The notes below the pieces were generated by a model. It saw only the letters and a list, made by a program, of their open reading frames with translations. It ran no database searches and was not told where the DNA came from. A stretch of 64,000 nt of DNA from Macrolepiota albuminosa (lineage: Eukaryota; Basidiomycota; Agaricomycetes; Agaricales; Agaricaceae), in NCBI GenBank assembly GCA_027475525.1, contig JAMWFC010000005.1, positions 1,488,001 through 1,552,000 of the forward strand. The letters are read 5' to 3'. Of this stretch, positions 12,251 to 51,060 are shown in pieces; the stretch's first letter is position 1; each line of letters begins with the position of its first letter. The position numbers and the translations under genes were made by a program.

Positions 12251-13265
12251 TGATAGGACCCCATACAGGATCAGCGCATCAACGGCAGGCTATGGCAACA
12301 TGGCACAGGCTCGGGATACCTTAGCATGCGCTAACTAACCAATTTTGGCAATATTTGATGGCCATGCACAGCAAGAAGCAGATCCAATCAATGATAGCGC
12401 TGACGGCAGACAGAATGACAACTGACAGATGGCATCAGTTACTGACAACAGCGCTTAGTGAGAAGCCTGATGATCTATCAAAAACTGACGGACAGCTTGG
12501 CGTTTGACCTTGGCGTCTGAAACCACTTAGCGCCTCGATCTGGCGCCTGACATCGCTTAGGTGCTCTGACAGACAGAAGGGTGATGGATTGATAGTTTAG
12601 CTTCGCGATCTGCTGCCTGGCATCGCTAAGGTTCTTGAATGGACAGTAGGGATCTGAAACCGTTGGAGCTACCCCTATGAAATTTTCTAGTTTACCGCAC
12701 TTTGGCAATGGTTGGTCAGACGGTAGGGATCTGAAACCGTTGGAGCTACCCCTATGAAATTTTCTAGTTTACCGCACTTTGGCAATGGTTGGTCACTAGC
12801 GACGGTGAACTCCTTGTAGTATATAAAGTACTTACCAACTTGTACATACATCATCGAACAATAGACCAGAGTTTCCTGCTCCTCTTACTTCAGTCTCTCT
12901 TACACTCGAGATTTCATTTACGGTCGGCAATGTCGAACTCATCAGCAGTTGCAGACTATCGTTAGCCTTTGACCTATTCATGCCTTGCAGCTATGGCAGG
13001 CATCTACGACGCTTAGACTTTGCTAAGCTTACTATGTTCTTGCCGTTGATATTGCCATGTTCGCTTACCGCTCCCTTCATAGGCACTTTACCTTAGCGCT
13101 TTACACTTGCCGACTTTCCTTACCAACTTTTCCCCATTTTCATAGGCGCGTTCTCTGGGACCTGCCCGGGACTCCTCATATCACTTATAGCACGCCCAAC
13201 GCAAGCTTTTTGGTACGGTAACACTATAGTTATATTTGTTACTGACCAAACTTTGGGCGTCATCA
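12251..13265 (+). repeat. 5' LTR of Element 2
   Basis: 1015 bp, from TGATAGG to GTCATCA. About 77 bp longer than the 3' copy because of a tandem duplication near 12646-12795. A TATATAAAG at 12822-12830 is a plausible TATA box. Confidence 0.9.
12646..12795. repeat. 77-bp tandem duplication in the 5' LTR of Element 2
   Basis: The stretch starting GTAGGGATCTGAAACC at 12646 recurs at 12723, 77 bp later, and ends at GGTCA. The 3' LTR has one copy. Same unit length as five or more unrelated duplications in the window; probable assembly artefact. Confidence 0.85.
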
Positions 13266-13360: not shown

Positions 13361-15433
13361 ATAGCTCCTTCCCACCCATCAACTCCACAACCACCTGGTG
13401 CCTTACCAGGTCTCTCTCTTGCACAGGAACTACAGAACGCCACTATAGACAAATTTTCTGACCTCTTCCCGCGTTCTCTCAACTTTAGCGCCGACAACCT
13501 CTTAGCGTCGCCGCTTGCCGTACCACAACCAGTTACCTCCATTACTCCGTTAACACCTCTTTCTCAACTCATTTCTCTTACCCCGTCACCAATCTCTAGA
13601 ACTCCTTCCCCACAACCGCTAACCGAACTCGCTACCACCGTCGCCATGGAACAACAAGTTCAGCGTATGCCACTATGCAATCACTTCTCAGCACCAAAAT
13701 GGGACGAGTCCAAGCCACGGGAGCTCTCCCAGTATTTCAAGGAATTGGAGTATTTATTTAGGAATTGTGGTATTACCGACCACACACAGATGAAGGAGTA
13801 CGTGGCAAGATACGTGTTGTATGACACGGCAGAGACGTGGACAGGCCTTGCTGAGTTTGCCGCCTTTGTTCCTGCCACCCCACCCGTTCCAGCCCAAGGC
13901 ACCTCTTATAAAGGCTGGAAGATGGCAGTGATTTAGTTGTACCCTGGCACTGAAGAGGCTACCCGATACTCGGTAAACGAGCTGCAGAAACTAGTACAGG
14001 AATCATTCGACAGCAGCACCTCTTCTCTTGGCGCATTCTCCACGTATTACCGCGAATTCCAAAAGATTGCTAGGTGGTTAGTACAAAACGGCAAGCTATA
14101 CATTAACGAGGAACGTCGCCTATTCCAACAAGGCATCCCGACTTTGCTTTGGACTCGCATTGCTCGCTGTTTAGAGATAGTTCACCAGGCCCATCACCCA
14201 GACGAGCCCTATAACGTTGCCAACGTCTTTGAAGCCAGTAAATGGGTTCTCAAGGAGACAGACACTGGCGTTGGGCTGCAATGCACTAGGATGAGCCCAC
14301 CACCTGAGCAAACTAACGGTATCATTCCTATCCTGCCTCCTGTTGCCAACTTCGTTAAGAAGGAGAATCTCAACGCTGCCGTTACTGCTGCTGTTGCTTT
14401 CGCCATGACTCGTATTGAAATTATGATTACCACCAATCTCGCTAACCGACCCGCTAATGTACCTGCATCTGGCCCTTGCCACTTCTGTGGGGAAATTGGC
14501 CACACCATGACTAGAGGATGCTGCGCAACCCTCGAAAATTACATTCGGCAAGGAAGGATTCAAAGGGCTATCGACAGCAAGATAGTTCTTACTACTGGCG
14601 CCACCATCCTCAACTACCCAGACAAGAAGTCTTTCCAGGAGCGAGTTGATGAATGGCATAGGCGCAACCCAGGACAAATCATTATCGGCACGCTTTCTGG
14701 CAACGCCAACCCCGACCCTGAACAGGCGACCCAACAGCAAATGATCCACGAAGTCTTACACTTCGACAGCATTGGCAACCACCCCACTTTCTCGCGAGAA
14801 GAATGTATCACCAAGCTACAGCAGGAGCTAGATTTGCTTAAGAATCAGGTCTTTGATGGGGTTGAAGTTAAGCAGCCTAAACAACCTCTTAAAAGATACA
14901 AGCCAATGCCTCCCGCTCCTGCCACACCACCAGCCACCACTCCAGAACCATCGTTGTCCTCTGCAGCTCCTAAACCGCCCTTGCTGCCCCTCCATCCCTA
15001 CTCAGGGATTCCCGACCGTTATCATGCTCCCACACAACAAAATTTTGCCGCTCCCGAGAAATGTCCTGAGGGTGGTTACCGACCTACCACGCCAATTTTC
15101 GACATAGAAAAATCAAACCACGTATTCAACCGCATCATGAAAACCGCCATCACCTTGTCAGTAGAAGAACTTTGCAGTATTGCTCCCGACGTTCGCAACC
15201 AAGTCAAGACGGCAGTCACTCCTCGACGACCCTTGGTGACCACCATTGCTGAGGTCAAGGACCTCGACGACGTGCTCTCTGTGGACCCAGTGGAGACCTA
15301 TCTTAGGTCAGTAGACCATGGAAAAGACCCAGCAATTCTTACTGTCGCTCAAGAATCGCACGCTATTCGCTCCATCGCGCTAACCGTAGACAATAAGCAC
15401 GAGGTAGAGGCAATCGTGGATAGCGGCTCTTAA
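13361..15433 (+). pseudogene. gag: Element 2 Gag with protease start (two nonsense codons)
   Basis: One frame, interrupted by TAG at 13934-13936 (probably CAG) and ended by TAA at 15431-15433 (probably CAA, since the relative at 51683-51943 has Gln). The first ATG is at 13646, but the frame is open and protein-like from about 13297. An ATA at 13361 in the expected context may be a lost ATG. The capsid region is around 13640-14300. A zinc knuckle CHFCGEIGHTMTRGC is near 14477. A Pro-rich linker follows, then the protease motif AIVDSGS at the end. Gag and protease share one frame. Confidence 0.8.
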
Positions 15434-15926
15434 ATTATTTCTATGGCAGCCGAAGTCGCTAACGATCTAGGCCTCATTTATGACCCTACTGTGATACTAA
15501 ACATGCAGAGCGCTAACGATACGGTGGACAGATCCCTAGGCCTCGCCAAGAATGTGCCTTGCACCCTTGGCAACATCACCTTCTACTTGCAGATATACAT
15601 TTTACGCTCCCCGGCATACAACTTACTACTCGGCAGACCCTTCGACGTCTTGGTGCGATCAGTCATCAAGACAGTTACCGACAACAAGACAACTTTAACT
15701 ATTAGCGACCCAAATTCTGGAATCCAACGAACGGTGCCGACGTTCTCTAGGGGACAACGAAAAGGCGCCTGCGCTAAGCCCCCGGAGTTTACCGACCAAC
15801 ACGCCAACAAGCCTCCCCACCGGTGTTTTCACAGACCATTGAGGAGGTGATTGGCAACGATCACGGAGATGTGGCGCTAACGCTGGAATATGACCATTCT
15901 ACTGGTCTTGTAAATGTTGTGTATAC
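15434..15926 (+). pseudogene. Element 2 protease, C-terminal part
   Basis: Continues from the nonsense codon at 15431: IISMAAEVANDLGL...YNLLLGRPFDVL, the second half of a retropepsin after DSGS. A one-base frame change occurs near 15820; beyond it the sequence reads IEEVIGNDHGDVALTLEYDH, mirrored in the relative at 51311-51547. Cleaves the polyprotein in particles. Inactive as written. Confidence 0.7.
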
Positions 15927-16081
15927 CGCTTTTCTTGACGAAGAAGTTTTAACTACTTTATCCGCTACCGACGCTGAGCTTTCCCAGAAAAATCAAAACA
16001 TTACGCTTTTCTTGACGAAGAAGTTTTAACTACTTTATCCGCTACCGACGCTGAGCTTTCCCAGAAAAATCAAAACATTAC
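15927..16081. repeat. 77-bp tandem duplication in Element 2 pol
   Basis: 15927-16003 is repeated exactly at 16004-16080. Flanks differ immediately outside, apart from one base. Removing one copy keeps the reading frame (frame 1 before, frame 0 after, as expected for 77). Confidence 0.92.
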
Positions 16082-16436
16082 CGACTCCGCTCTAGCGTAC
16101 TTGTACCTTACCGCTTCCGAATCCTTTCAAAACATTGCGACTACCGATACTTATCTTACTACCCTTCCTGGAGCATCGTCTCCTGCCGTTCTTGGACTTG
16201 CCGCTCCACAGGCTACAATTCCCCTTTCCACCTCTGTATATAACCAAGCTAACGCTCCCAAAAGGAAAGGAGTTCAAGTCAAAAAGAAATATAAGCCAGT
16301 TGCGCTTAAAACAAAACCCGTCGTCACGCACTCTCCCGAGACGTTTAGAATCGAGCGCCAGATCATTGGCGACCCTCTTGCTGACATGCCAACTTTATCA
16401 CCAAATCCGCCACCCTTTCAGCCCCCGGGACGTTTT
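16082..16436 (+). pseudogene. Element 2 pol, linker before RT
   Basis: Open in the frame that follows from the upstream pol after collapsing the 77-bp duplication. Low-complexity Pro/Lys-rich sequence without a known domain, ending ...FQPPGRF where a solo LTR cuts in. It resumes at 16775 with TAERQQQFAKEHD in the predicted frame. Confidence 0.6.
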
Positions 16437-16769
16437 TGTTAAAGACAGGCAAAGCACAGGGGACAGAAACTGTCACTAAAGCTGAAGTCCAAAGTCAGAA
16501 AGAGTGTATTGAGCAAGTAAAGTATTACTAACCTGAAGTCCAAAGTCAGAAAGAGTGAGGACTTCAGATGATCTATCTACAGTTTATATACTACTGGAAA
16601 ACTATATACATGTGAATAAAGAATAATCACATGTGGATACATGTGATAAAATATAATCACATGGAGGATACATGTGATAAAGTATAATCACATGTGGATA
16701 CATGTGATAGAATGAACTTGGGATAGAATGATGATCATAATGGAATGCATGCAACAGGCAATTTCAACA
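16437..16769 (-). repeat. Solo LTR, family C, inside Element 2
   Basis: 333 bp from TGTTAAAG to TTTCAACA with a perfect target duplication GTTTT (16432-16436 and 16770-16774). It includes tandem ATCACATG words and two copies of a GAAGTCCAAAGTCAGAAAGAG stretch. Other copies are at 25551-25853 (opposite orientation) and 34551-34832. It is the third level of nesting: family C inside Element 2 inside YR1. Confidence 0.93.
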
Positions 16770-16774
16770 GTTTT

Positions 16775-18172
16775 ACCGCAGAACGCCAACAACAATTCGC
16801 GAAGGAGCATGACACAGGGTTTTTGACCAAAGATGAGTTGAATGTCCTTACCGACCTCGTCGCTAAGCAAGATAAAGCCTTCGCCTGGGAGGACTCGGAA
16901 TGCAGCAGTCTATGTACAGACTTCTTCCTGCCTGTCATAATCCCGACCATTCCCCACGTACTGTGGACTGAGCACAACCGACCATTACCACCTGGAATCG
17001 AAGCCGAGGTCTGCCAAATCATTAGGACCAAGATTAAGGCTGGCGTCTACAAACCCTCCAATAGCTCTTACCGCTCCCGGTGGTTTTGTGTCCTCAAAAA
17101 GAACGGCAATTTATGCATAGTTCATAGTCTTGAGCCGCTGAATAGAGTTACAATATGACACTCTGGCGTACCGCCTTTCCCTGACCACGTTGCCGAGTCT
17201 TTTGCCAGGCGTATTTGTGGTACCACCCTTGACCTCTACGTTGACTACGACAAATGCCTCATACACCCTTCTTCCTGAGACCTTACCACTTTTCAAACTC
17301 CGTTTGGCACGTTGCGCCTAGTCACTTTACCGATGGGCTGGACAAACTCAGTCCCTATCTTTCATGATGACATCACTTTCATCCTCCAACCCGAGATACC
17401 GCATAATGTCCTTAGCTTCATTGATGACGTTGGCGTCAAAGGCCCCAAAGACTGGCGACTCGTAAAGAGCTTACTGGCGACCCATCCCGACAACTCCAAC
17501 ATTCGCTTAGCGCTATGGGAATTTTTCCAGTTGCTCAACCGAGTTCTCCAACGTATGAAGTATAGCGGTGGAATATTTAGCGGCCACAAACTCCTCCTTT
17601 GCGCGCCAAGGTTCAAAATACTTGGTCACATCTGCACTCCCGACGGTCGCATTCCTGACAAGTCTCGCTTAGCACTCCTAGAGCGATGGGGTCCTTGCCG
17701 CGACTTATCTGAAGTTTGCGCCTTTCTTGGTACTGTTGGCGTTCTCAGGATATTCGTCAAGAACTTTGCCCATTGTGCACATGCCCTTAACCGACTCACC
17801 CGCGCCAACGAGCCCTTTGAATTTGGGCCAGACCAGGTCACTGCACAACGAGACTTAGTAAAAGCCCTACAAGACGCCAAACCCCTAGTTCCAATCGACT
17901 ATAGCTCTGCCGACCCTGTTATCTTGGCGGTGGATACCTCGTACATTGCCGTTGGCTACTTCTTGTGCCAGTGTCTTAGCGACAATCGGAAACAGCGACG
18001 CTACAACCGCTTTGGGTCTATTACGCTAAACAATAGGGAGTCTCGTTACAGTCAGCCTAAACTAGAGCTCTATGGACTCTTCAAAGCCTTCTGGTCGCTA
18101 AAGATGTATTTAATTGGCATGTGGAACCTGATTGTTGAAGTCGACACTAGGTACATCAAAGGCATGCTGCAG
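16775..18172 (+). pseudogene. Element 2 reverse transcriptase and RNase H
   Basis: One frame with two TGA codons (17156-17158, 17276-17278), each one C-to-T step from CGA. RT landmarks: KAFAWEDSE, the TFQTPFGTLRLVTLPMGWTN stretch, then the catalytic FIDDVGVKGP near 17420 (FIDD in place of YxDD). Then RMKYSGGIFSG and FLGTVGVLRIFVKNF (connection), and RNase H with AVDTSYIAVGYFLCQ near 17940 and RYSQPKLELYGLFKAF near 18050. FIDD/YIDD with KGP is typical of one fungal gypsy lineage. A tandem 77-bp repeat at 18173 ends the frame. Confidence 0.85.
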
Positions 18173-18326
18173 AATCCCGATATCCAGCCATCTGCTAGCA
18201 TGAACCGGTGGGTAGTCGCTATCCTCATGTTTCACTTTGAGTTGGTACAAATCCCGATATCCAGCCATCTGCTAGCATGAACCGGTGGGTAGTCGCTATC
18301 CTCATGTTTCACTTTGAGTTGGTACA
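18173..18326. repeat. 77-bp tandem duplication in Element 2 RNase H
   Basis: 18173-18249 repeated exactly at 18250-18326, with mismatches directly outside. The frame moves from 2 to 1 as expected for 77 extra bases, and the protein is continuous once one copy is removed. Confidence 0.93.
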
Positions 18327-18502
18327 CGTCAAGAGCTCTTTTCACGGACCAGATGGACTCTCTAGGTGACCACGGCAGCCTGGCGACCTGGCAGTGGATC
18401 CACAGGCTGATAGCGATTTCAAGGACTGGATCGACAGATTACATGGTTTTGTACACCTTATACAACAGCCAATCCCCCTACTACGACGGCAACAGCCTGC
18501 TA
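18327..18502 (+). pseudogene. Element 2 RNase H to integrase linker
   Basis: Continues pol in frame 1 after the duplication. One TGA at 18367-18369 (CGA by C to T), then DPQADSDFKDWIDRLHGFVH. No catalytic domain of its own. Confidence 0.6.
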
Positions 18503-18656
18503 GTATCCTTTTACATCCCATTGTCCCTTACCGCCCCGAGATCTTTAGCGCACCCCTCACATTCTACATGGCAAGCATTGTATCCTTTTACATCCCATTG
18601 TCCCTTACCGCCCCGAGATCTTTAGCGCACCCCTCACATTCTACATGGCAAGCATT
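18503..18656. repeat. 77-bp tandem duplication in Element 2, before integrase
   Basis: 18503-18579 repeated exactly at 18580-18656. Flanking bases differ at both ends. The frame changes from 1 to 0 as expected. Confidence 0.93.
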
Positions 18657-20141
18657 CTTGGACAAGACTTGCCACCAGTAAAAGTCGTACAGGAACCCCA
18701 TCTGCTAAGAGAAGACAGCAGAAACCTGACCTATGATGCCGTTCCCCAATCCGCCAAGGCAAAGGCGGAAGACAGTCGCTTGTTAATAGTTGAACAATGG
18801 ATACAAGACCTTAAGCGACCTACAGGCCTTACCGACGAGCAATACGCGACCTTTATCTGATATGCTACCCATTTCTTCTTTACTGACAACTGCCTTTGGC
18901 GACGAAATCGAGATGGCGCTCACAAGCTGATCATCAAGCCAGAAAGTCGCTTACGAGTCCTGCGTGCCATGCATGACGAGCTAGGACATAGAAGTCTGTA
19001 CGCTACCCGAGCTTCTCTGTTAGAACAATTCTGGTGGCCACACGCTAGTGCTGACATCGCCTGGTACATTAGGACTTGCCACCTCTGCCAAATTCAACAA
19101 ACACGCCAAGTACTCATACCGCCAACCGTTGCAATGCCAGCTCCCCTCTTCAGCAAAATTTACGTCGACACCATGCATATGCCCAAGTCTGGTCGCTACA
19201 AGTACATCATTCAAGGTCGTTGCTCGCTAATCCACTGGCCTGAATTTCGAATGCTTCAGAGAGAAAATACCGACGCGGTCGCCAAGTGGCTATTTGAGGA
19301 CGTCATTTGCCGTTGGGGAGCGCTAAGAGAAATCGTCACGGATAATGGTGCGCCAATTATCAAAGCGCTAACATATCTCGCCAAGAAATACAACATTCAC
19401 CACATTCGAGTATCTGGCTACAACAAGCGTGCCAATGGCCTGGTAGAGAGACCACACTTTGACGTTCGGCAAGTGCTCTTCAAGGCAGTCAATGGCAACG
19501 AGTCTCGTTGGAGCGAAGCGACCTATTCAGTATTTTGGTCAGAAAGAGTTACTATTCGTAAGCGCATGGGTTGTTCCCCTTATTACATGGCTACTGGCAC
19601 CCATCCGTTACTCCCTGCCGACATTATAGAAGCGGCCTACCTTCAGCCAGCACCCAACAGTATCTTAGCGACTACCGATCTGATCGCCAGACAAGCTATT
19701 GATCTCCAACAAAGGAAAGAAGATTTAGAGTGACTCCACAAGGTAGTCTTTAGCACCCGTCGCCAAGCAGCACTACGATTCAAAACCGAGCATAGCGCCA
19801 CTATCAAGGATTACAACTTCCCAAGGGGTGCGCTAGTGCTTATGCGCAACTCCAAAATCGAGACCTCATATAACAAGAAAATGCACCCACGCTATCTAGG
19901 ACCTTTGGTAGTTATCTCTCGTAACCGTGGAGGCGCTTATGTGCTCTGTGAATTAGATGGTTCAGTACTACATCGACCTGTTGCTGCCTTTTGCCTATTG
20001 CCATATCTCGCCAGAGAACACATTGACTTGCCGCTTGAAGTGCTAGATATCGACACCGCCAAGCTTAGGGAACTTGAAGAAACAGAATTATTGGACGATG
20101 AGGATTTGCCGACTCTGATAGAAGAAGAAGAAAATGACTAG
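18657..20141 (+). pseudogene. Element 2 integrase and pol C terminus
   Basis: Frame 0 throughout, with TGA at 18858-18860 and 19731-19733 (both CGA by C to T). Integrase zinc finger: HDELGHRSLYATRASLLEQFWW... then CHLCQ (HHCC). Core: YVDTMHMPKSG (first Asp), EIVTDNGAP (second Asp), GLVERPHFDVRQ (Glu). The C-terminal part ...NKKMHPRYLGPLVVISRN resembles the usual post-core beta domain. An acidic tail ends at a genuine stop at 20139-20141. No chromodomain seen. It joins the double-stranded DNA copy to the host genome; inactive as written. Confidence 0.87.
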
Positions 20142-20565
20142 AAAAGATTATATTGATAAGCTCCTTTTTCTATTACTTACCTTACTTATCTTTCTTGCCA
20201 ATACTTACTGTACTATATCCAACAGACAATTCCTTACATAGTCAAGTCGCAGCGCTAGCGTGTCGCCAACGCTTAGCGCACTGCGCAACTCTCACCAAGG
20301 GTTTTTCGCTATGATGATTTACTGAGTGTTTCCCTTTCTCCTCAAAAATTTGTCCAAGTCCCACACCTACTACTACTTTTGCTAAAAACCTACCTTAGAA
20401 TACTTGCCGCTTGCTTTCTCTTTGCTTTACTTTCTTGGCTCTCTGCTGCTGCGCTAACTCAGACTGGACTTAATTCTTCCACTCAGCAAGGGAACGGCAA
20501 AATATATATATGGAGACGGCAACAAGAAAACTATACATAAACGGCCTATCTATGCTAAGGTCCGT
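20142..20565. other. Gap between convergent pol and antisense gene
   Basis: 424 bp where the sense pol and the antisense gene converge. No ORF of note. AT-rich at 20500-20540 (ATATATATATGG). It probably holds the 3' ends of both transcripts. Confidence 0.4.
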
Positions 20566-22981
20566 TTATTCGCTTACATCGTCCATTGATAAGGAGTCGT
20601 CGGTAACTGGCAGGGAGGACTCGCGAAGAGGGAGAAGATCGCCCGGTAAAATGTTATTGGCGGTTTGCCAATCTATGGCGGCTTGACAATCGCCCTGGTA
20701 ATCGTGAAGCACGTGAAGGCTACGACCCAGGTTGGAATAGCGCAATTGCAGCGCCATTAGCTGACCCTGGACTCGTTTTCATTCCCGCTCCATTGAGGAC
20801 TCCATCGTTGCCGCCCTTCTTGAGTACCGCTCTAGCATGTCACGAGGGTTAAGCGCTATGACTGGGTAAACAAGATCTTGACCCAGCCACTAAAAGGCAT
20901 TGCCAGTAACGGTTGGTTGCGGCTGAGGGGTCCAAGCAGGATTAATCCTGGCGACTATGGGGCACCTTGGTTTCAGCCCGGCAACATCCTCTGGATCTGA
21001 CACTTCCCAGGAGGCAACATTACCATAGGGAGGCAGCCAGCGCCACTCAGGCTCCTCCCTGGTGACTCCTGCCGCTCCCTCACCTTCTTCCGCTACCACC
21101 TCCTTTGCTGCTGCCTCCTTGCCACCATCCCGTTGCGTCGCCAAGGTCTCTTCTTCACCCTCAGCGTCCTCATCCCCTCCCATTGCCGCCCCCTCTGCCT
21201 TCTCCTCCTCCCCCATCTCAACATCTGTGGGAGCATTTTTCCGCTCCTCTGGAGGCGCCGAGTCGCCAACCGCTTCCCGCTCTCCTACATCCTGCTCCTC
21301 GCCAAGGGACCTCGCTGCCAAATGAATGGGTGACAAGAGGCCACTTGGGCCTGCCTCAGGATCTTGAGGAGGCAGGCGACTCGCCGCTAAGGCCTTCTCC
21401 AAGTTCTCCATCTTGGTGTCTTGAGGAGCTGGCGAGGGGAAAGGCGATGACACTACCCAAGGTCGCTTTGCTTTGCCCTTCCCTTTGCTGGAGGAAGGGG
21501 CTTGTCATTTTTCTGGGACCGAAGTCCCTTGGCGCTCGCTGGCGCCTCGATTGCCGACTGTTTCCGTCTCATCTCCTTGGCGTGTCGGCAACGCCAAGGA
21601 GGCACGTCCAATAACTGCCATACCACCAGCAGCGACCTTCTTCTTCTGCCCCTCCACAAACTCTCTAGCCCTCCTTACCAAGACAGCACGAGAGAACGTT
21701 TTCTCAATGAGGGCATCTGGCGCGCCGCCACACTCGCGACTCTTGGCCCTGTTGATGGTGCAAGCGCGCTTGAGAGCACCACAACGATAACATGGCTGGG
21801 CCCCAGTCAGGAACCAGCAGCCTTCTGGGTCGTTGTCTGCCCAGCACTTGTCACACTAGTGCTAAGAGTTAGCAAAAGACTCAAAAAGACAGAAGAGTTA
21901 CTTACCGCTCCCTGCGCCTTCTTAAAGGCCTGCTGGGTCGCCAGGGAAACAGTCTTTTTCCCCTTCATCTCCTCCATCACGACCCCGGCCTCTTGCCTCT
22001 CATCAAGGACGGCCTCCTCGCGACGCGGCAAGAGCAGTCCTTTGAGCTCTTTATCGTCAAAGCTCGACTGCGTTGGCGCCTAGACAAATCACGGTAAATA
22101 AGGAGACTAGATTTTCCAAAGACCACTTACCGCGTATTGAGGAGCCGCCTTGCGACTCTACAGACGTCGTTAGCGACTGTCGGCAACAGCAAGCGAAATC
22201 AGCACTTACCTTACGTTTGGAAGCATCTGCCGGCTTCCTCGGCGAGCCCGACTTGCTAGCCGGCAACACTGGGCTCAAAGTGCTGCCAGCACGACCACCC
22301 TGGCTGGATCCCTCTGCTACCAACTGCCACTTGGCGGCAGGCACCTTCCCTGCAGCAACTTCCTCCATCTCTGCTGCCAACGCTGCCACCCTCTCTCGCT
22401 CCTCTAGCGCCCTGGTAATCTCGCGGACGTCTTGAGAAACCTCCTCTTGCCTTGCCGCGATCTCCTCCTCCACCTGCATGCGTGCTAGAGGCGCCAACAC
22501 CTCTTGTTTACTGTGGGGTGACAGATCAGATCAAAGCTAAGTCAAAAGAATGGGTTAGGAATACTCACTCTGCCGCAGGTGTGCTTACCGTCATCGGCAA
22601 GGCACCGGACAGAATATCCTCCAACTCGTCCTCTATCGTTGAGATGGGAGGAGGCGCCTGGCAACTCAGTCAGCTAGCGACACGGCAAGAGCTGGAGGTA
22701 CTTACAAAACGAGCAAAAGGCACTAACCACTCCGCGCCACGATGATCCAGGTACCACAATCGGCACCACTCTCGAACCTCTATTTCGCGATCCCAGCCCA
22801 CGCCAAGAACCAGCCACCGCTCGTATAACTTCATAACGGCAGTCACCAAATTTATAGGCGCGTCTGCACCAACGCCATCAATTCGCTTGAGGAAATTATT
22901 TGCCTTTTCGATATAGGTGGAGGCAGCGTCTTGAGCCTCATGAGACGGTACGGGGGGCAGAGTTGGAATGTGGAAAGACAT
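20566..22981 (-). pseudogene. Antisense six-exon gene of Element 2, Zn2Cys6-like protein
   Basis: On the strand opposite gag-pol. Exons read: 22981-22706, 22657-22569, 22510-22210, 22157-22131, 22079-21906, 21855-20566. The five introns (22705-22658, 22568-22511, 22209-22158, 22130-22080, 21905-21856) are 48-58 bases, with donors GTAAGT or GTGAGT and acceptors CAG or TAG, and phases agree. The CDS is 2157 bases, about 719 codons. Exon 1: ATG, then MSFHIPTLPPVP and WYLDHRGAEWLVPF. Exon 3 is helical and acidic (VEEEIAARQEEVSQDV). Exon 6 opens with CDKCWADNDPEGCW and PCYRCGALKRAC, spacing CX2CX8CX8CX2CX6C, close to a fungal Zn2Cys6 cluster. Then come a Lys/Ser stretch, a long Glu/Ala-rich acidic region, and a tail ending SLSMDDVSE. 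Three in-frame stops (21507-21505, 20892-20890, 20781-20779) are each one C-to-T step from Arg or Gln. A regulator or chromatin-binding protein is possible but unproven. Confidence 0.72.
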
Positions 22982-23134
22982 TTTATTTTAATAGAGCGCC
23001 AGATAAAAGATGGGGAGGAGAAACGAAGTCCACACTCATGCGCCAGGACTATAAACAAAATTTCAAGAACGCACGGACCACTTGTCACAAAAGCGGCAAC
23101 GGTAGCCTTATTTGGTGACTGAGGACAGTCAATT
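22982..23134 (-). promoter_or_regulatory. Presumed promoter region of the antisense gene
   Basis: Only 171 bases separate the antisense start codon from the 3' LTR, so its promoter lies here or within the LTR. On the minus strand there is a TTTATAG at about 23050 and an upstream ATG near 23038. No strong element can be named. Confidence 0.3.
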
Positions 23135-23152
23135 TTTCAGTTGGGGGGAGAT
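23135..23152 (+). other. Polypurine tract of Element 2
   Basis: GGGGGGAGA immediately before the 3' LTR at 23153, the expected place for plus-strand priming. Confidence 0.75.
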
Positions 23153-24089
23153 AATAGGACCCCATACAGGATCAGTGCATCAACGGCAGGCTACGGCAAC
23201 ACGGCACAGGCTTGGAATATCTTAGCGTGCACTAACTAACCAATTTTAGCAATATTTGATGGCCACGCACAGCAAGAAGCAGATCTGATCAATGATAGCG
23301 CCGACGACAGACAGAATGACAACTGACAGATGGCATCAGTCACTGACAACAGCGCTTAGCGAGAAGCCTGATAATCTATCAAAAACTGACGGACAGCTTG
23401 GCGTTTGACCTTGGCATCTGACACCGCTTAGCACCTCAATCTGGCACCTGACATCGCTTAGGTGCTCTGACAGACAGAAGGGTGATGGATTGATAGTTTA
23501 GCTTCGCGATCTGCTGCCTGGCATCGCTAAGGTTCTTGAATGGACGGTAGGGATCTGAAACCGTTGGAGCTACCCCTATGAAATTTTCTAGTTTACCACA
23601 CTTTGGCAATGGTTGGTCACTAGCGACGGTGAACTCCTTGTAGTATATAAAGTACTTACCGACTTGTACATACATCATCGAACAATAGACCAGAGTTTCC
23701 TGCTCCCCTTACTTCAGTCTCCCTTACACTCAAGATTTCATTTACAGTCGGCAACGTCGAACTCATCAGCAGTTGCAGACTATTGTTAGCCTTCGACCTA
23801 TTCGCGCCTTGCAGCTACGGCAGGCATCTACGACGCTTAGACTTCGCTAAGCTTACTGTGTTCTTGCCGTTGATATTGCCGTGTTTGCTTACCGCTCCCT
23901 TCATAGGCGCTTTACCTTAGCGCTTTACACTTGCCGACTTCCCTTACCGACTTTTCCCCATTTTCACACACGCGTTCTCTGGGACCTGCCCGGGACTCCT
24001 CATATCACTTATAGCACGCCCAACGCAAGCTTTTTGGTATGTTAACACTATAGTTATATTTGTTACTGACCAAACTTTGGGCGTCATCA
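23153..24089 (+). repeat. 3' LTR of Element 2
   Basis: 937 bp from TAATAGG (TGATAGG in the 5' copy) to GTCATCA. Differs from the 5' LTR by the missing 77-bp repeat and scattered C/T and G/A changes. Confidence 0.9.
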
Positions 24090-24403
24090 ATGTCACAGCT
24101 TTTGAGTGGCCGCCACGTCGTTTGCTCATTTTCATGGACAGGTTAGACTCAGTAGCAATATTCAACACGCTGGGAGCTACCGAATCATTGCACAACTCAG
24201 TAGTTTGTGCTGTTGCGGGCATAATCTTGCAAACAGGGATCAACTTGCGAGTTTGCCATATCGTGGGTAAAGACAACATCAGAGCTGATCTGTTGTCACG
24301 TCTGCTATTTGATGAGTACAGATGCAAATTTCCAGCAGATCGCATCCACCGATTCGAACCACCTCGAGATTTATTGCCATCAAGATGGAGGGCGTGCTTT
24401 TAA
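24090..24403 (+). pseudogene. YR1 ORF2 part 3: end of RNase H
   Basis: Resumes YR1 after Element 2: VTAFEWPPRRLLIF, DRLDSVAIFNTLGATESLHN, HIVGKDNIRADLLSRLLFDEY, DLLPSRWRACF then stop 24401-24403. This matches the end of RNase H in fungal tyrosine-recombinase elements. The frame is the one predicted from the left half after removing 11843 bases. Its last 19 bases overlap the start of ORF3. Confidence 0.8.
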
Positions 24404-25375
24404 GCGCATTGGGTGGATCATCACGGGGTAAACAGACAGCCTGTTCACCAATGGTGTTAGCAGATCTTGACGCTTTCACATCTCATTTTCAAGTTCAGGC
24501 CATTGAAAAGTCAACAGCTAGTAATTACATGACCGGAGCCCGAGACTATGTTAAGTTTTGTATGAACCACAACCTTCCTCTTGATCCTACACCACAGATG
24601 CTATCCCATTATATTGCATATACTTCAAAATATATCGCATCCAGACCGAAATACCTTACAGGACTTCGGCATTTCATTCGCAATTTTTATCCAGATTTTG
24701 ATATAAATAGATCTCATCCTCTTGTTCAAGCCACCATTAGAGGCTCAAAGAAAGTCCAAGCTGATCCAGTTCAAAGGAAGCTGCTTCTATGGCCTCACCA
24801 TCTTGCACTTTTTGTGGATACAGCTCGTCGTTCGAAAGACTATGACGATTTCCTTTTTGCCACTATGATGTCTTGTTGCTTTTATGCATGCCACAGATCA
24901 GGAGAGCTGGTCAAAAAGACAGCAAAGGAATCCACCGATTGGCGTAAAATAATAAAATGTTCCTCAATAAAATTCACTCAAGGGTACGCTGGGTATCACT
25001 TGCCCTACCACAAAACCGACCCATTCTTTCGAGGCACCGATATTCTATTCACACATCAAGAGACAGCCGACCCAGTATCTTTGCTACAGGAATACGTCGG
25101 TATCAGGGATAAGCTTCACAGTTTTTGTCGTGCTTTATTCCTTCAAAAGGACGGATCTATTCCAACGCGTGCAAGGCTCGAGTCTAAGCTATTCTCGTTT
25201 GTGGATTGTTCCTTTGGAGGTCATTCAGCACGGGTGGGAGGCACCACGTTTTATGCATTGCTAGGGGTGTCAGAAGATATTATAAAAGCATTGAGACAAT
25301 GGTCGTCCTCAGCTTGAACAATCTATGTACGCAAGAATCCTTGCATGAGAATGGCGCTACAACTAGCAGCGCTAT
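24385..25375 (+). pseudogene. YR1 ORF3, tyrosine recombinase (stop before catalytic Tyr)
   Basis: ATG 24385 gives MEGVLLSALGG. The N-terminal SAM-like core-binding part has STASNYMTGARDYVKFCMNH and LTGLRHFIRNFYP. The catalytic part has CHRSGEL (Arg I) and GGHSARVGGTTFYALLG (His and second Arg). A TGA at 25314-25316 follows WSSSA, where relatives have Trp. Beyond it the same frame continues with TIYVRKNPCMRMALQLAAL, which holds the nucleophilic Tyr. As written the protein lacks its nucleophile. It would insert circular DNA of the element by site-specific-type recombination. Confidence 0.82.
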
Positions 25376-25550: not shown

Positions 25551-25853
25551 TGTTGAAATTGCCTGTTGCATGCATTCCATTATGATCATCATTCTATCCC
25601 AAGTTCATTCTATCACATGTATCCTCCATGTGATTATATTCTATCACATGTATCCACATGTGATTATTCTTTATTCACATGTATATAGTTTTCCAGTAGT
25701 ATATAAACTGTAGATAGATCATCTGAAGTCCTCACTCTTTCTGACTTTGGACTTCAGGTTAGTAATACTTTACTTGCTCAATATACTCTTTCTGACTTTG
25801 GACTTCAGCTTTAGTGACAGTTTCTGTCCCCTGTGCTTTGCCTGTCTTTAACA
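25551..25853 (+). repeat. Solo LTR, family C, second copy
   Basis: 303 bp from TGTTGAAATTGCC to CTTTAACA with target duplication AAACT (25546-25550 and 25854-25858). Opposite orientation to the copy at 16437. TATATAAAC near 25702 is a possible TATA box. Confidence 0.93.
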
Positions 25854-26263
25854 AAACTAGGGTTACTATCATCTTGAGTTCTATTCCTCTTTCTCTCCTC
25901 TTTCTCCTGAACTCCAATTTGTTTGTGCGAAGAGCTGCAGAGGTGAGTAGGTACTCTCGTTGTCTGTCCCTAATATTCGTGTATCTTATTCAACTCCTAG
26001 TACAACATTCTCCTTATTCTGTCTCATTCTGTCTCCTTATTTTATATTTAACTTAGACTGTCTTACTCATCGTCTCCTTATCTTATTCTCCTTTTTCTGT
26101 TCATCTATATAAACTTCATGTATTTGTTACTGAAAACTAAGCAATCAACACGGTTGTTTTGTCTCGCTCTCAGTAACTCTAAGTCTTCTCTCAAAACTTG
26201 AAACTCTTATCTGCTTATATTATCTCAAAATCTCTAGTTATTTTCTCTGTTTCTGACAGCTAC
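25854..26263. other. AT-rich spacer without recognisable gene
   Basis: Pyrimidine-rich, many TCTCTT and TTATTC words. No homologous feature recognised in the rest of the window. May be remaining YR1 tail. Confidence 0.3.
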
Positions 26264-34550: not shown

Positions 34551-34832
34551 TGTTAAAGACAGGCAAAGCACAGGGGACAGAAACTGTCACTAAAGCTGAA
34601 GTCCAAAGTCAGAAAGAGTGAGGACTTCAGATGATCTATCTACAGTTTATATACTACTGGAAAACTATATACATGTGAATAAAGAATAATCACATGTGGA
34701 TACATGTGATAAAATATAATCACATGGAGGATACATGTGATAAAGTATAATCACATGTGGATACATGTGATAGAATGAACTTGGGATAGAATGATGATTA
34801 TAATGGAATGCATGCAACAGGCAATTTCAACA
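34551..34832 (-). repeat. Solo LTR, family C, third copy
   Basis: 282 bp from TGTTAAAG to TTTCAACA with target duplication ACAAA (34546-34550 and 34833-34837). Lacks the internal duplication of the copy at 16437. Confidence 0.93.
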
Positions 34833-42130: not shown

Positions 42131-42150
42131 GACACTGAAGTTCAGGAGAT

Positions 42151-42967: not shown

Positions 42968-43451
42968 GAGGTATCTTCCTCCTCATAGTATACATCTTTT
43001 TTCAGCTAAAGCCATGTTCTCAGGTGATGAGTACTATGAGTGGACTGTGCAAGTTTCTATTTCTATTTGTATAAGTCTTCTCTTTGTGTTTACCTCCTTC
43101 CTTTTTATTAACTTTGCTAAGTTCAATCCTTTCTGGACTTCTTCTCCCACTATGTATATTACTAGCAATATCTTCTCTTGGCTTGGAGATTGATTCTTCT
43201 ATCCTGTAACCCTGCTCTGTCCCACCAAAGAACTTTTGTTGCCAACTCTGCTATATTAATAAAGTAACTGAAATAGTTGTAACTTAGCTATTCTGTGCTC
43301 TCATATTAATACCTTAGCACATTGTGAGACTCTTTTGTTCAGACTTCATGATGACATTACTGATGCACTGAAGTGGCAAGCAAATAACCATATTCAGGAT
43401 GGGGACTTGCTTCCATTAGATGATCCTGCCTTGTCTACATATAATAAATAA
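42968..43451 (+). pseudogene. Remnant of antisense gene in Element 5
   Basis: Plus-strand translation FAKFNPFWTSSP...NIFSWLGD-stop-FFYPVTLL, then ALKWQANNHIQDGDLLPLDD near 43370-43420. This follows the C-terminal part of the Element 2 antisense protein: INPAWTPQP...NAFxWLGQDLVYPVIAL and AIDWQTANNILPGDLLPLRE. Order and spacing agree. Numerous stops. It lies antisense to the pol of Element 5, as in Element 2. Confidence 0.7.
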
Positions 43452-45500: not shown

Positions 45501-46687
45501 ATCTGTTATTGCTTGTCCTTGCTATCTGGGGCTGTTTTGTCATCATCTACTAATTCAGTCTTCTTAAGCTCTCAAAGTTTAGCAGTATCAATGTTCAGTG
45601 CAGTCAATGGTAAGGGAATGTGTTCACATGCTAAGTAGGGAATAAGTCAGAATGTTGCTACTGGCTGATGCAAAACAGAGCTGGCCAGTTCACAAAGTAT
45701 ATATGCACTTCTTCTATTGCAGAAAACTACAATAAGGGAGCTTAGATATCAAAAATGCATCTTTTTGTTATGTGTAACTTCAATCTTTAAGTTTTGCATT
45801 AATACTAGCACTTCTGTAGCAAAGTTGTTGTCTCATATTGTAGCACTATGCTTACTTTCAAATCATAGTGCTGTCTGACATTGTGCTAGAAATACTATTT
45901 TATATAAGCACTTGAGATTCTTTATACAATATTGTAAGTCTATAGCATGCCTCACTATCATGTCAGTGGAGGAAAGAACTGAGTTTGGCAGTAGTTGTAA
46001 GTAAGTTGCTTCTACAATATCAGCTGGAAGCAAAGGATAGGTGCCTGTCATAGCATAATAAGAAAAGCAACCTATTCTTTTGCACATAGTTACATATTCA
46101 GATCAAAATACCAAATAGGTTGCTCTACTTCAATAACTCTCATCATTGCCTACTGCCTTGAAAAATGCCTGTCAAACATCAAAATGCAGACATTCCACAA
46201 TGCTGTTGGAGCATTTGTTGTATTCTGAAACTCAAATATGCTGTATGTTGTATTTTTTTGCCAAATAGGTAAGCGTCTTGACTATGGATGCTCTATTGTT
46301 TATAATAATTTTATGAAGTGCTTCTTATTGGCAGATAACATCCTTAAAGAGCCACCTAGCTATAGCATTAGTATTTTCTTGTTGTAACATTTGGAACTCT
46401 GGCTAGTGTACCAAAGAGCACCTTCTCTGGATGATGTACTTGTAGTGCCCTGACTTAGACATGTGCATCATATCAGTATAAATCTTTCCAAACAATAGTG
46501 TGGATGTTGCTACAGTTGGGGAAATAAGAACTTGATGTGTCTGTTGAACTTGGCATAAATAGCAGATACAAATATACTATACAATATCAGTATTAACTTG
46601 AGGCCATCAAAAGCACTCTAATAGGTTTGCTCTTATAGCATAGAGTTCTCAATATTCCAAGTTACCATGCATAGCATATAGAATCCT
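45501..46687 (-). pseudogene. Element 5 integrase and pol C terminus
   Basis: Minus-strand text parallels Element 2: CQVQQTHQVLISPTVA near 46540, then MCKRIGCFSYYAMTGTYPLL and ADIVEATYLQLLPNSVLSST (46087-45863), and an acidic tail LNIDTAKL near 45590 like LDIDTAKL of Element 2. Many stops. Confidence 0.72.
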
Positions 46688-47190
46688 TGTCAGGGGACTC
46701 CTCATTTCTTCCTTTTTTCACTCTCCTTTCATTCATTTCCTTATTTCTTCTATCATTCTCTTATTTTGCTGTTTTTATTCTCTTAACACTATTTGTTAGT
46801 ACTATTCTCAGCCTTTGAGGTGCTCTGGTTCTTTATCTATTATTCAGACAAGTGTGGGTTCTTCAGCACTGCTTCCAGACTGCTTATATAAGCTGGAGTT
46901 TGCCTTTCTGACTTCCAAAGTCCAGAGTTTTCCTGCTTTGTTTGCACAGTTATTTGGTTAGTCAGTTTTTGAGTTTTTAAGGTTTTGTTGTACTGTACAG
47001 TTGTTTTCCATGCTTTAGAAGCCTCAAAAGCATCAACCTGGCATAGAAAATCCCTAGACTTGTTCTCTTTGGATCTCCCTCTGCCAAGTGAGTAGTTATT
47101 ATGATATTGTTAGTATATACTTTAATACACTTTGAATCTCCTTCTGCCAGCTGTGTGACTAAGCTACAGCCTCTAGAGGTCATTCTTACA
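46688..47190 (+). repeat. Solo LTR, family A, in Element 5
   Basis: 503 bp from TGTCAGGGGACTCC to CATTCTTACA, perfect target duplication ATCCT (46683-46687 and 47191-47195). Confidence 0.93.
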
Positions 47191-47630
47191 ATCCTAACTC
47201 AATTGTCAGACAGAATTACTAGCTTATAGGCTCCAGCCTTATGTTGTCATTAAAGTCAGTCTTTGGCCAAGACACATATTGAATAAATATAGTGTATTCT
47301 ATGTTACTAAGATTTGGTGGTCACCATAAATCATGTAACCACTTCCTAATCTGATTAACTCACTGATTTTCTACCTGAGCTTTAGCACTTCATGGCATTG
47401 CTATATATAGTAAATTTTAGCTATTTTTCCATAAGAGTCTAGGTTCCTTGACTATTTTTAGCTTGTTAGCTAGCTTAATGATGTTATAGATATTGGCCAT
47501 GTAAAACATTGTTGATGCTTAATATAGATTAAATTGGTATAAAACAATAGGATGTAGCCAAGTAGAGATTAGCTGATCTTCTCAAAGTAAAGAAACAAGC
47601 AGCTGAATAATATGGATAAACTTATGTAGT

Positions 47631-48336
47631 CAGTGATACAATGCTGTGCCAGCAGTCCAGGACATAACAAGCATCAGAAGTTAAAATAAATATTTATTAA
47701 GGCTGAAAACTGTAAGCCTCCTGGTAGCAAGTTCCAACAAATTTTATCTCCACAAATATTCCAATAAAATACAAAAAATACAGGACAGATTAGGGCAAGC
47801 ACCAACTCAGGCTATCAATTCAACAATGGTCCAGCCACTGTTATGGGGAGGGGAAGCATGGGGCTGGCAAATAGAGTGGATTGGCATTAATTTAAAGTGA
47901 TCTGGATCAATGGAAGATCTGATCTACAAATAACCAGATTGGAATGTTTTGATGAATGGAAGAGATAAATAGAATGGTGGCACATGCATTGAATGAAGGA
48001 ATAAAGAGATGAAAAGAACGGCGGCACTGAAACATGCATCATCAAAATGGAAAATGGAACAACAAATTAGGTCAGGAATGCTGGGAGGTCAAGAGCAAAA
48101 AGTCATATGATCTGGTGGTCTGTGCACTAGAAAATTAGTATAAATAGTCCAAGTAGAGTAGAGAATAACCAGGCAATTGATAGGCAAAGACTTGGTAGTT
48201 TTCAGAGAGTGAATTACTTGGAGTTTGTTGAGAATCCTCTGCATCTCAGAATCTTTGATATTTTATGAAGCACTCAAAACCTTCAATACATCAACTTTAT
48301 TGTCAAGAAACAGTGTGGATTAGAGGAGACTTTCTA
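47631..48336. repeat. Repeat family B, copy 2 (inverted)
   Basis: 706 bp, from CAGTGATACAATGC to GACTTTCTA, the reverse complement of 31911-32627 with moderate divergence. Lies within Element 5 between integrase and RNase H. Confidence 0.75.
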
Positions 48337-48537
48337 GGACCATCTATAAGCCTCAGAACTATCAGTACTACTTGCAACTAAGTATTATGTCAGTCAATCC
48401 AGTCATCAAATATTTTATTATTGCTATTGTCTGGCACCTCATTGTTCAGCTGTTGTGGTCATCAATAATCTATTTTGCCTGTAAAAAGTGCTTTTTATGT
48501 GAACCAACTTGAAGTAAAACATAAGTATCACTACTAC

Positions 48538-48908
48538 CTAGCAGTTCATACTTGTCAATAGTTGAATATCCAGATTCTGTAGCATCTCTTTAATATAGTG
48601 TGCATCAACTTCAACAATCAGATTTTGAATCTCAATAAAATATATTTGTAATGCCTGAAACAATTGAAATAAGCCATATAACTCTAGCTTGGGCTGACTA
48701 TAATGCAATTCTCTGTTGTTAAGGATAATCAATTTAAAGTAATTATAGCACTTAATTTTTTGATTGGTGCTGTCACACTAATATGAAAGAAAGCTAACTG
48801 CAATATATGATATGTTAATAGCAAGTATAATGAAATCAAAGATAGTATAGTCAATGAGTACTAATGATTTTGCTTTCTGTAGCACCTTTACTAGATTTTC
48901 TTAGACAT
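48538..48908 (-). pseudogene. Element 5 RNase H fragment
   Basis: LNNRELHYSQPKLELYGLFQ and NLIVEVDAHYIKEMLQNLDI (48732-48538) match Element 2 at 18010-18190. Upstream codons continue to the family D LTR at 48909. Confidence 0.75.
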
Positions 48909-49972
48909 TGATGATGCCAACTATAGTCAGGTGCACTGAATGTTATACACTATAACACCATCTCCAGTGCCTGGCATGCATAGTATGTGAGGAGTTTTAA
49001 CAGAGTTTTAGTGTGCTCGAGCAAATATAGTAAGACAACATGCTAAATAATAGTGCTTTAAATGCTACCTAGCAAACTGTAAGTGCCATAGCTTGAGCAA
49101 AGATATCATAAAGAGAAAGAATAGTGCAACAAGATGTGCCTGTAGGTGGCACTGTAAACAACAAAAATAATATAAACAATGCTAGCTCTTAACTTAGTGA
49201 TAAAGTCAGGTCAAGCTAGCATAATTTGAATGCTGAGAGTAACTGAGTGCCCAATAGGTTATGATTTATTGCTATTTACATGTTAAGTAGCTATTTTTTA
49301 TACTATACACTACTGTATTTTAAAAATGAGTCCATCTGCAATGCTATCAATTAGTGTTTTTTTTCATGGTTACAATTAATAATGACCTGTCAACAGCAGC
49401 CAGCAGCATATAGATAATGGCAACCAATAATATTACAGCCTATTGGCTATGGCAACTCTAAAACTACTTAAAATTGTATGAGTCTGCTCACTTTTTAATA
49501 TGAATCCAATTGGACAGGCTTCTCCAGAGTATAGTTAGAAAGTCCTCAACAAATGCCATAAGTGCTAACTCTGGTGCTAAACATTGTATCTCTTTCTGAT
49601 AGGTTAAAATGTTGAGTTTTAGTATATCCCATTTCATTGTTGTTAATTTTTTATACTTCTGATTGAGATGCCTTGACAAATGGCAGTGCTTAATGCTACT
49701 CCTTTTGAAATTGATTGAAGTTTGGTCAAAGTCACCTCCTTATTGTCGCACTAGCATTCTGAATTCTGAGCCTCTTGAATTCTTGGAGTCAATAAATAAT
49801 GAGTGACAAGTAGCTGGTAAATGATAGTTGAGACTGGTAAATGAAGCCTGTATTGAAGTGCCAAAGCCAAAGATGTCCTATGTCCAAGAAGGTTGCTTGA
49901 ATCTTTAGACTGACAAGTGTTGGTAGGCCTATAGTGTTTCTTGATGTGCTCAGCCTAAGTAGGAGCCTATCA
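48909..49972 (-). repeat. Solo LTR, family D, in Element 5
   Basis: 1064 bp, TGATGATGCC...GCCTATCA. 4-bp flanks ACAT and GCAT (one transition). The minus-strand ORF at 49488-49679 inside it is chance. Confidence 0.87.
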
Positions 49973-51060
49973 GCATTAATTTGATCAGGTCCAAATTTAA
50001 AAGGTACTCCAGAACAAGTTAAGTGATTGAAAACATGTGCTCAATGTGCAAAATAATAAACAAATATGCAGAGGACTCTTACTATGCTTAAGAATGCATA
50101 TACTTCTAAGAAATTATGACAAATGTCCCATTTCTTAAAAAACATTAATCAGCTCTTCTCAGAAATCCTGCCTTCTGACATGCAGACATGTCTTAAAATT
50201 TTAAATTGCAGTGTGCAAAGAATCAACCTATGGCCTAAAAATGTCCCACCACAATACTTCATCTATTGAAGTACTTGGTTTATTAAATGAAAGAAGTTCC
50301 ATAGTGTTATTCAAATATTTGGATTCTTTTGATGTACTTCAGGCTTGCTATTTACTAAGCACCAATCTTTCAGTTCCTTAACACCAACATCATTGATGAA
50401 ACTAAGCACATAATGAGGTATCCTAGGCTAGAGAATAAATGTAATGTCATCATGAAATATTAGTACAGAGTTTATCTACTCTATAGAGAGAATAACTAGT
50501 TGTAGTGCTTCAAACAGTGTTTGAAAGGTTGTTAAATTTTGAAAGGAAGGATAAATCAAGTGCTCATCATAGCCAATATACAAATCCAGAGTAGCACTAT
50601 ATATGCATTCCACAAAAGACTTAGTAATATAATTAGGAAAGAGCAGTATCCCTGAATGATAAATTATGACTTTGTTTAACAGCTCTAAACTGTGAACTAT
50701 ACAAGCTTCTCATTATTCCTCAACATGCAGAACTATCTAGATCAGTAGGCCAAATTAGAAGGCTCATATATGCTAGCCACTATTTTTGAACAAATAAACT
50801 TTGGCCTCTATTTCTGGTAGTATAAGTCAGTTGTGTTTAGTCCATGATACATGTAGTATGTTGATATTACTATTAGTAGGAAGAAGTCAGTTGGTAATTT
50901 ACCATGCTTGAAGTCTTCCTAAGCAAATGCCTTGTTCTGTTTTTGCATGATATCAACCAATATGTCTAGTTCTGCTATTGTTAGGAAACTAATATTGAGA
51001 GTGCTGAGAAATAGCACCTTGTGCTCTGTCATAAATTGCTCTGTTGGTTGATGAATCTGG
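49973..51060 (-). pseudogene. Element 5 reverse transcriptase remnant
   Basis: Around 50985-50920 the minus strand reads LTIAELDILVDIMQKQNKAFA, matching LTKDELNVLTDLVAKQDKAFA of Element 2 (16830-16880). The rest is AT-enriched and interrupted. Confidence 0.6.

Follow-up and report, generated by a model that had tools for sequence, protein, structure and literature searches.

The antisense gene and its carrier element

The 64,000-nt stretch of the Macrolepiota albuminosa genome considered here (assembly GCA_027475525.1, contig JAMWFC010000005.1, positions 1,488,001 to 1,552,000 of the forward strand; hereafter the window) contains a Ty3/gypsy-type long terminal repeat (LTR) retrotransposon, characterized by two LTRs, a polypurine tract, an RNase H domain preceding the integrase and a short target duplication. 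On the strand opposite to gag-pol, between pol and the 3′ LTR, six exons separated by five introns (minus strand, 20566-22981) join into one frame. A preliminary description of the window had proposed such a six-exon antisense gene, with introns of 48 to 58 bases and a frame of about 719 codons interrupted by three stops; this structure was reproduced, and 39 further copies could be aligned with it. In the window, the gene is a pseudogene (three stops) inside a broken element, the gag-pol of which is spread over several frames. The parts of the gene, from the leader to the final stop, are the following:

22982..23151, minus strand: leader from the ATG to the 3′ LTR, candidate antisense promoter and 5′ untranslated region, with TTTATA at about 23050-23055
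22706..22981, minus strand: exon 1 with the ATG, N-terminal part, helices modelled at low confidence
22658..22705, minus strand: intron 1, phase 0, position common to the relative L050 (see below)
22569..22657, minus strand: exon 2, from the splice model
22511..22568, minus strand: intron 2, phase 2, GTGAGT donor, from the splice model and the copies
22210..22510, minus strand: exon 3, from the splice model
22158..22209, minus strand: intron 3, phase 0, position common to L050
22131..22157, minus strand: exon 4, a 27-nt micro-exon (36 nt in L050)
22080..22130, minus strand: intron 4, phase 0, position common to L050
21906..22079, minus strand: exon 5, 174 nt, equal length in L050
21856..21905, minus strand: intron 5, phase 0, position common to L050
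20566..21855, minus strand: exon 6, with six-Cys cluster, basic stretch, acidic region and C-terminal long helix; stop TAA at 20566-20568

The carrier element comprises the following features:

12251..13265, plus strand: 5′ LTR (TGATAGG...GTCATCA), pieces matching the 3′ LTR at 94.6 and 95.6% identity, with one 77-bp tandem duplication inside
13937..15433, plus strand: gag-like open reading frame (ORF) extending into the protease region; DUF4100 at E 0.002, below the cut-off of that family
17312..18280, plus strand: part of pol with RNase H (RT_RNaseH, E 2e-11)
18969..19733, plus strand: integrase part of pol (Integrase_H2C2, E 7e-12)
20141..20565, no strand: gap from the end of pol to the antisense stop codon, matched wholly or partly in 20/20 flanked copies
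23141..23151, plus strand: polypurine tract of the sense strand, read from the sequence, adjoining the LTR start
23152..24089, plus strand: 3′ LTR, from its match to the 5′ LTR, ends read

The reverse transcriptase would lie within 17312..18280, to judge from the position of this segment and from its weak match to the pol of another element of the window (3775-4230; 26% identity, E 2e-9); no Pfam RVT match was found in the window pieces scanned.

The spliced sequence is 2157 nt long, a multiple of three, and corresponds to 719 codons including the final stop, with three internal stops in the window copy. The attribution of these three stops to Arg or Gln codons agrees at the amino-acid level. 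In the joined sequence, stops number 27 and 28 in the other two frames of the same strand and 16, 21 and 18 in the three sense frames. Introns 1 to 5 measure 48, 58, 52, 51 and 50 bp, with the donor GTAAGT in four cases and GTGAGT in one, and with CAG or TAG as acceptors. The junction at 22568, which had been predicted from the GTGAGT donor, holds in the other copies as well: of the 38 copies in which the second donor is present, 37 read GTGAGT or GTAAGT.

Copies, selection and retention of the introns

A DNA search of the 100-Mb genome returned 45 matches (best 40 of 628 candidates scored) and a protein search 123 (best 62 of 2551 candidates scored). From the same genome, 39 copies were read and aligned besides the window, giving 40 rows. 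The frame starts with MSF in 38 of these rows and is stop-free over its whole spliced length in 9/39 copies, encoding eight distinct proteins (L019 and L018 share theirs). GT..AG is retained in 184/192 introns, a count that excludes three truncated introns of L043 and L045 and includes L009, a duplicate of the window. In 36 of the 40 rows, intron lengths range from 46 to 61 bp, except for two outliers of 40 and 130, and of the 79 differences in exon length other than zero, 68 are divisible by three, with the caveat that the copies share ancestry and the differences are not independent. Among the other 11, three (65, 67 and 86) are close in size to a 77-bp duplication that recurs in this assembly. 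The conservation of frame and splice sites in 39 further aligned copies places the antisense frame far beyond chance. Stops in the other copies are mostly TGA in place of CGN (33/50), a pattern that fits CpG decay or a process resembling repeat-induced point mutation.

The gene belongs to the element. In all 20 flanked copies, which were picked for having the antisense gene and include L009, pol, gap, gene, leader and LTR follow each other in this order; in L020 and L024, only part of the LTR is matched. An independent nested element was rejected on the basis of this identical position. Approached from the integrase side, 19 of 40 matches, including the window and its duplicate, have a scored gene match 0.76-1.06 kb downstream, all on the opposite strand and none on the same strand (compared with the 64 exon-6 rows among the 123 protein matches and with 40 of 45 DNA matches). 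The other 21 integrase matches have no gene match among those scored; three of them were sampled, and all three also carry the gene, in antisense and without a stop over the 401 bp read. The carrier family thereby shows the layout of the antisense additional ORFs termed aORF-3R, i.e., antisense, located between pol and the 3′ LTR and present in most copies.

Copies L018 and L019 lie at different sites and represent two distinct insertions: their 4-bp target duplications are ACGC and ACGT, respectively, and within each copy the two LTRs agree at 99.4-99.8% over the parts that were aligned (the 5′ LTR of L019 was partly read). In both, the antisense gene has all five introns and no stop. Two recent separate insertions with five introns indicate that antisense introns survive the RNA intermediate, as the preliminary description had assumed. 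They would do so because the sense genomic RNA bears them reversed, so that they do not act as splice signals and are retained through retrotransposition. The three insertion sites read (L018, L019 and the window) are all at CACG(C/T), and integration may prefer such sites.

Diversity at codon positions 1, 2 and 3 amounts to 0.096, 0.075 and 0.296, compared with 0.247 in the intron interior and 0.080 at the splice sites (33 rows; L009, L016, L017, L043, L044, L045 and L047 were excluded, and L042 and L046 also from the tree, for truncation, insertion or duplication). The ratio of nonsynonymous to synonymous substitution rates (dN/dS) lies between 0.07 and 0.13 in 27 of the 28 pairs formed by eight of the nine intact copies (L019, with the same protein as L018, was omitted), while the remaining pair gives 0.65 at a dS of 0.004; over the 521 pairs with dS above 0.05, the median is 0.135 and the range 0.07-0.34. 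By parsimony on the 31-row tree, the ratio of changes at positions 1 and 2 (averaged) to those at position 3 rises from 0.208 on internal branches to 0.366 on terminal ones, and the 20 GT/AG bases are unchanged on the former and change seven times on the latter. Changes per site in the intron interior are 1.38 on internal and 1.49 on terminal branches of the same tree. This contrast points to selection in the transposing lineages, relaxed after insertion, when copies decay. Purifying selection, the absence of which the preliminary description had listed among the grounds for refuting its proposal, thus maintains both the antisense gene and its splice sites along transposing lineages.

In the same copies, codon positions 1, 2 and 3 have diversities of 0.043, 0.030 and 0.158 in the integrase and of 0.099, 0.073 and 0.276 in the antisense gene; these and the other regional values come from 17 of the 20 flanked copies plus the window, with 13 to 18 rows per region that are not the identical rows across regions. 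Constraint on the two is comparable and the antisense gene is more diverse, its third-position diversity being about 1.75 times that of the integrase. Integrase distances correlate with those of the antisense gene at only 0.44, a value compatible with exchange between copies or with mosaic assembly. L018 and L024, for example, are 78% identical in exon 1 and 98% in exon 6, a contrast which suggests segment exchange between element sub-lineages or mosaic assembly. By eye, exon 1 falls into two classes across the copies (17 of 22 open exon-1 copies aligned).

The leader (about 170 bp) has a nucleotide diversity (pi) of 0.094, compared with 0.153 in the gap, 0.121 in the whole 3′ LTR and 0.207 in the introns. 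It contains a TATA-like TTTATA 74 nt before the ATG, L050 has TATAAAA 57 nt before its own ATG, and a 37-nt block of the leader is identical in L050. From these sequences, a dedicated antisense promoter in the leader seems fairly likely. Two points weaken this step. The 37-nt block includes the polypurine tract, and the LTR stretch 23304-23500 is slightly more conserved than the leader (pi 0.088 vs 0.094), so that conservation is not evidence for a promoter alone; our confidence in the promoter was slightly lowered on account of this LTR stretch.

The second lineage, the protein and its possible role

A related gene is carried by elements of a second lineage, one of which lies in decayed form in the window:

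43113..43450, plus strand: decayed C-terminal exon of the same gene, antisense to the pol of that element (30% identity, E 2e-10)
45911..50505, minus strand: decayed pol of the second-lineage element, integrase 62% identical at the amino-acid level over 254 amino acids

Of 40 second-lineage integrase matches (from 42 rows, window and duplicate included), 19 are followed within 8 kb by the C-terminal domain, which is always on the opposite strand and never on the same strand; 114 of the 150 domain rows were used first, and the count was still 19/40 with the other 36 checked. The other 21 have no C-terminal domain match among those scored, the loci themselves not having been inspected. Hence, homologues occupy the same place in related elements, the lack of which would have told against the preliminary description. 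It is worth noting that 26 of the 150 scored C-terminal rows share one score (108.4 bits, E 2.4e-29) and have no stop, perhaps because of a recent burst of the second lineage.

A full relative, L050, has eight exons and seven introns. Its introns 1, 3, 4 and 5 coincide in position with those of the element, with phase 0 in the open frame of each exon, while intron 2 is close to that of the element in another phase and two further introns are extra. The exon preceding the Cys cluster measures 174 nt in both, the spacing of the six Cys is equal, and the proteins are 41-45% identical in aligned blocks. The last exon of L050 is 79% identical to that of L051, which adjoins a second-lineage integrase match; the upstream part of the L051 gene is broken by an intervening sequence that includes an LTR-like match of 54 bp. 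Because identity between the two lineages is 62% for the integrase and only 41-45% for the aligned blocks of the protein, the association of gene and element looks old, and since related elements of the same genome carry the gene too, it very probably matters to the element. We regard it as a real, selected and probably old spliced antisense gene of a retrotransposon clade.

The product of about 720 amino acids consists of N-terminal helices (modelled), the Cys cluster, a basic KGKGKAKRPR stretch, an acidic region (net -23 over 480-565) and a C-terminal long helix. All 13 exon-6 copies that were aligned (of 16 open) have the spacing CX2CX8CX8CX2CX6C without variation, and the cluster probably binds zinc. 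In the structure models, only the C-terminal helix of exon 6 stands out (residues 332-394, ten-residue mean predicted local distance difference test (pLDDT) score of 68-87); it is probably a coiled coil. The conservation profile was drawn from 25 rows. Fungal Zn2Cys6 factors have six Cys in a CX2C...CX2CX6C frame with a basic first loop of X6, and a coiled coil and an acidic region elsewhere. The six-Cys frame is alike here, with a first loop of X8 that is acidic. The earlier label “Zn2Cys6-like” therefore stands for the invariant six-Cys spacing and fails for the first half (CX2CX8C, not CX2CX6C), for the loop and for family membership, no match to Zn_clus (PF00172) being found at E up to 10 with the whole protein or the Cys region.

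Antisense genes are already known from other retroelements. In the available portions of PMC7264820 and PMC11963269, plant aORF-3R (Grande gene23, RIRE2, Retand TRP28 and PvRetro13) are described as antisense coding regions that most copies have between pol and the 3′ LTR; for Grande gene23, transcription from a promoter upstream of it is reported, and the role of plant aORFs is proposed to be regulatory. The M. albuminosa gene shares with them its orientation, its position and its presence in most copies (here from sequence alone), and differs by its fungal host, by five to seven introns and by the six-Cys cluster. The word “intron” is absent from the main text of both papers, and no match to TRP28 (PF04195) was found in the product with Pfam at E up to 10. 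In a fungus, brtn of the Boty element of Botrytis cinerea (Zhao et al. 2011, as reported by PMC7264820, PMC8365987 and PMC4227169) is likewise an additional antisense gene of an LTR element, lying between pol and the 3′ LTR.

HBZ of human T-cell leukaemia virus type 1 (HTLV-1), APH-2/3/4 and AS1/AS2 of bovine leukaemia virus (BLV), as far as PMC10186651 and PMC7412551 report in their available parts, are antisense spliced genes or transcripts with a promoter at the 3′ LTR. HBZ (a 31-kDa bZIP protein) and APH-2 are nuclear according to the same sources; HBZ represses Tax-driven transcription and APH-3/4 suppress 5′-LTR-driven transcription. The likeness lies in an antisense gene with a spliced frame (here from sequence only). 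In the element, a conserved TATA-like leader stands beside the 3′ LTR as a candidate promoter. The differences are that those are vertebrate retroviruses, whereas five to seven introns and a much larger protein are found here, and that no Pfam bZIP match was found in the product. The claim that no fungal gypsy gene of this build had been described is therefore kept in part: the antisense gene brtn and the spliced deltaretroviral genes are on record, but a multi-intron antisense gene in an LTR retrotransposon was not found in the PubMed Central listings and passages searched, subscription literature lying largely outside the search, and a word search for “antisense” gave no hit in the survey of fungal LTR elements PMC3248453 or in the Laccaria survey PMC3411680. 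New here is a large antisense gene with five to seven introns and a conserved Cys cluster; antisense extra genes as such are not new.

We propose that the element carries its own accessory gene opposite to gag-pol, transcribed from a promoter in or beside the leader next to the 3′ LTR, and that the host would splice the transcript (five introns here, seven in the relative) to yield the protein of about 720 amino acids. Leaving its role apart, this anatomy with a selected, expressed antisense gene is assigned a probability of about 0.88 from the sequence, and antisense transcription and splicing as such seem very probable. The protein may act in trans, probably in the nucleus, on the expression or life cycle of the element, in the manner of HBZ and APH; by analogy, this role is plausible at somewhat below even odds. 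Still more tentatively, a Ty3/gypsy clade might long have carried a multi-intron antisense nuclear trans-controller with a Cys cluster and a long helix, with exchange of segments and lineage-specific recognition, as a parallel to HBZ of independent origin.

Several observations weigh against this interpretation. Among the 39 fetched copies, 30 are damaged by stops, frame shifts, truncations or insertions. As assembled, L050 carries a TAG in exon 1, and its joined frame is broken in exon 3 by a duplication of 77 bp; its apparent membership in the second lineage comes from the C-terminal-domain match and its likeness to L051. Because 77-bp duplications are numerous (see below), single copies may be mosaics. 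As to the protein, the segment between Cys 2 and 3 is acidic, although DNA-binding Zn2Cys6 proteins have a basic loop. At E up to 10, the whole protein matches no Pfam family and the Cys region only Anti-TRAP (E 0.41, below cut-off), and no relative was found in the PDB. The structure models are of low confidence (mean pLDDT 42 and 57, the latter for the N-terminal part; about 40 in the Cys cluster). The role of a regulator therefore follows from architecture and analogy only.

The best-placed alternative accepts the protein and assigns it to the particle or to the integration step, as a Gag partner, an RNA chaperone or a targeting factor. The Cys cluster and the long helix also suit nucleic-acid or Gag binding, and the CACG at all three insertion sites read makes some target preference possible, but antisense expression would uncouple the protein from the dosage of gag-pol and its acidic and nuclear-localization-signal-like stretches fit a nuclear protein better. 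Both objections are weak, and we consider this alternative unlikely, at about half the weight given to the trans-acting regulator. If instead the antisense RNA were itself functional, by silencing or interference with the sense RNA, the protein would be secondary; the transcript would complement about 2.4 kb of genomic RNA, and a role at the RNA level is discussed for plant antisense ORFs in the available text of PMC7264820. Codon periodicity disfavours an RNA-level function alone, the constraint being at the protein level (dN/dS of about 0.1, exon length differences in multiples of three, conserved splice sites), which makes this alternative improbable.

Even less probable is the recent capture of a host gene by one element and its amplification as a passenger. 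Spliced genes are typical of host genes, and no relative of the product was found in viral contigs, Pfam or the PDB, but its presence in two lineages speaks for an old association, and the purifying selection seen in transposing lineages would not be expected of a passenger. An ancient capture may still lie behind the gene. A chance open frame, or the mirror image of a gene on the sense strand, was rejected as next to impossible: GC-rich antisense frames are often long, and sense stop-free runs reach 369 codons in four copies inspected, but each sense frame of the nine stop-free copies has at least four stops, at least three of them within exon 6, and the splice sites are conserved and L050 shares exons, introns and Cys spacing.

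Antisense placement thus allows an LTR retrotransposon to carry a large gene rich in introns through reverse transcription, with selection maintaining the protein as well as the splice sites. With its many copies, nine of 39 stop-free, and its sister lineage, this richly spliced case makes the function of antisense genes in retroelements testable. In genome annotation, such genes look like normal spliced genes of the host and could enlarge the gene families that are predicted.

The window element and its surroundings

The target duplication of the window element reads ACGT/ATGT. Positions 15066-24900 and 43000-46672 of the window have a second, 100% identical copy on the same contig at a distance of 281 kb (G000:C126, about 1.50-1.53 Mb). 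The copy L009 belongs to this repeat and was rejected as proof of transposition: the identity covers all 9835 bp fetched and extends about 800 bp past the 3′ LTR, indicating a segmental or assembly duplication.

In the window and the scanned loci, 57 exact tandem duplications with units of 40-199 were counted, 44 of which have a unit of 77; the others have one each from 40 to 51 and one of 98. In the window, duplications of about 77 bases are found at 12642-12795, 15927-16081, 18173-18326 and 18503-18656, and there are others at many loci. They are probably artefacts of k-mer joining (k=77 overlap) during assembly, which break frames artificially.

Immediately after the 3′ LTR, an open frame of 331 amino acids (24322-25317, plus strand) has no Pfam match; by eye, its product resembles what we take to be a tyrosine-recombinase (Crypton/DIRS-like) protein. 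From about 40300 to 47300, the window appears by eye to consist of AT-rich, strongly decayed repeats. Finally, a repeat of about 240 bases with many acatgtgat motifs, 99% identical in three places (16434-16769, in the pol region of the element, 25611-25856 and 34593-34832), is possibly a small non-autonomous element.

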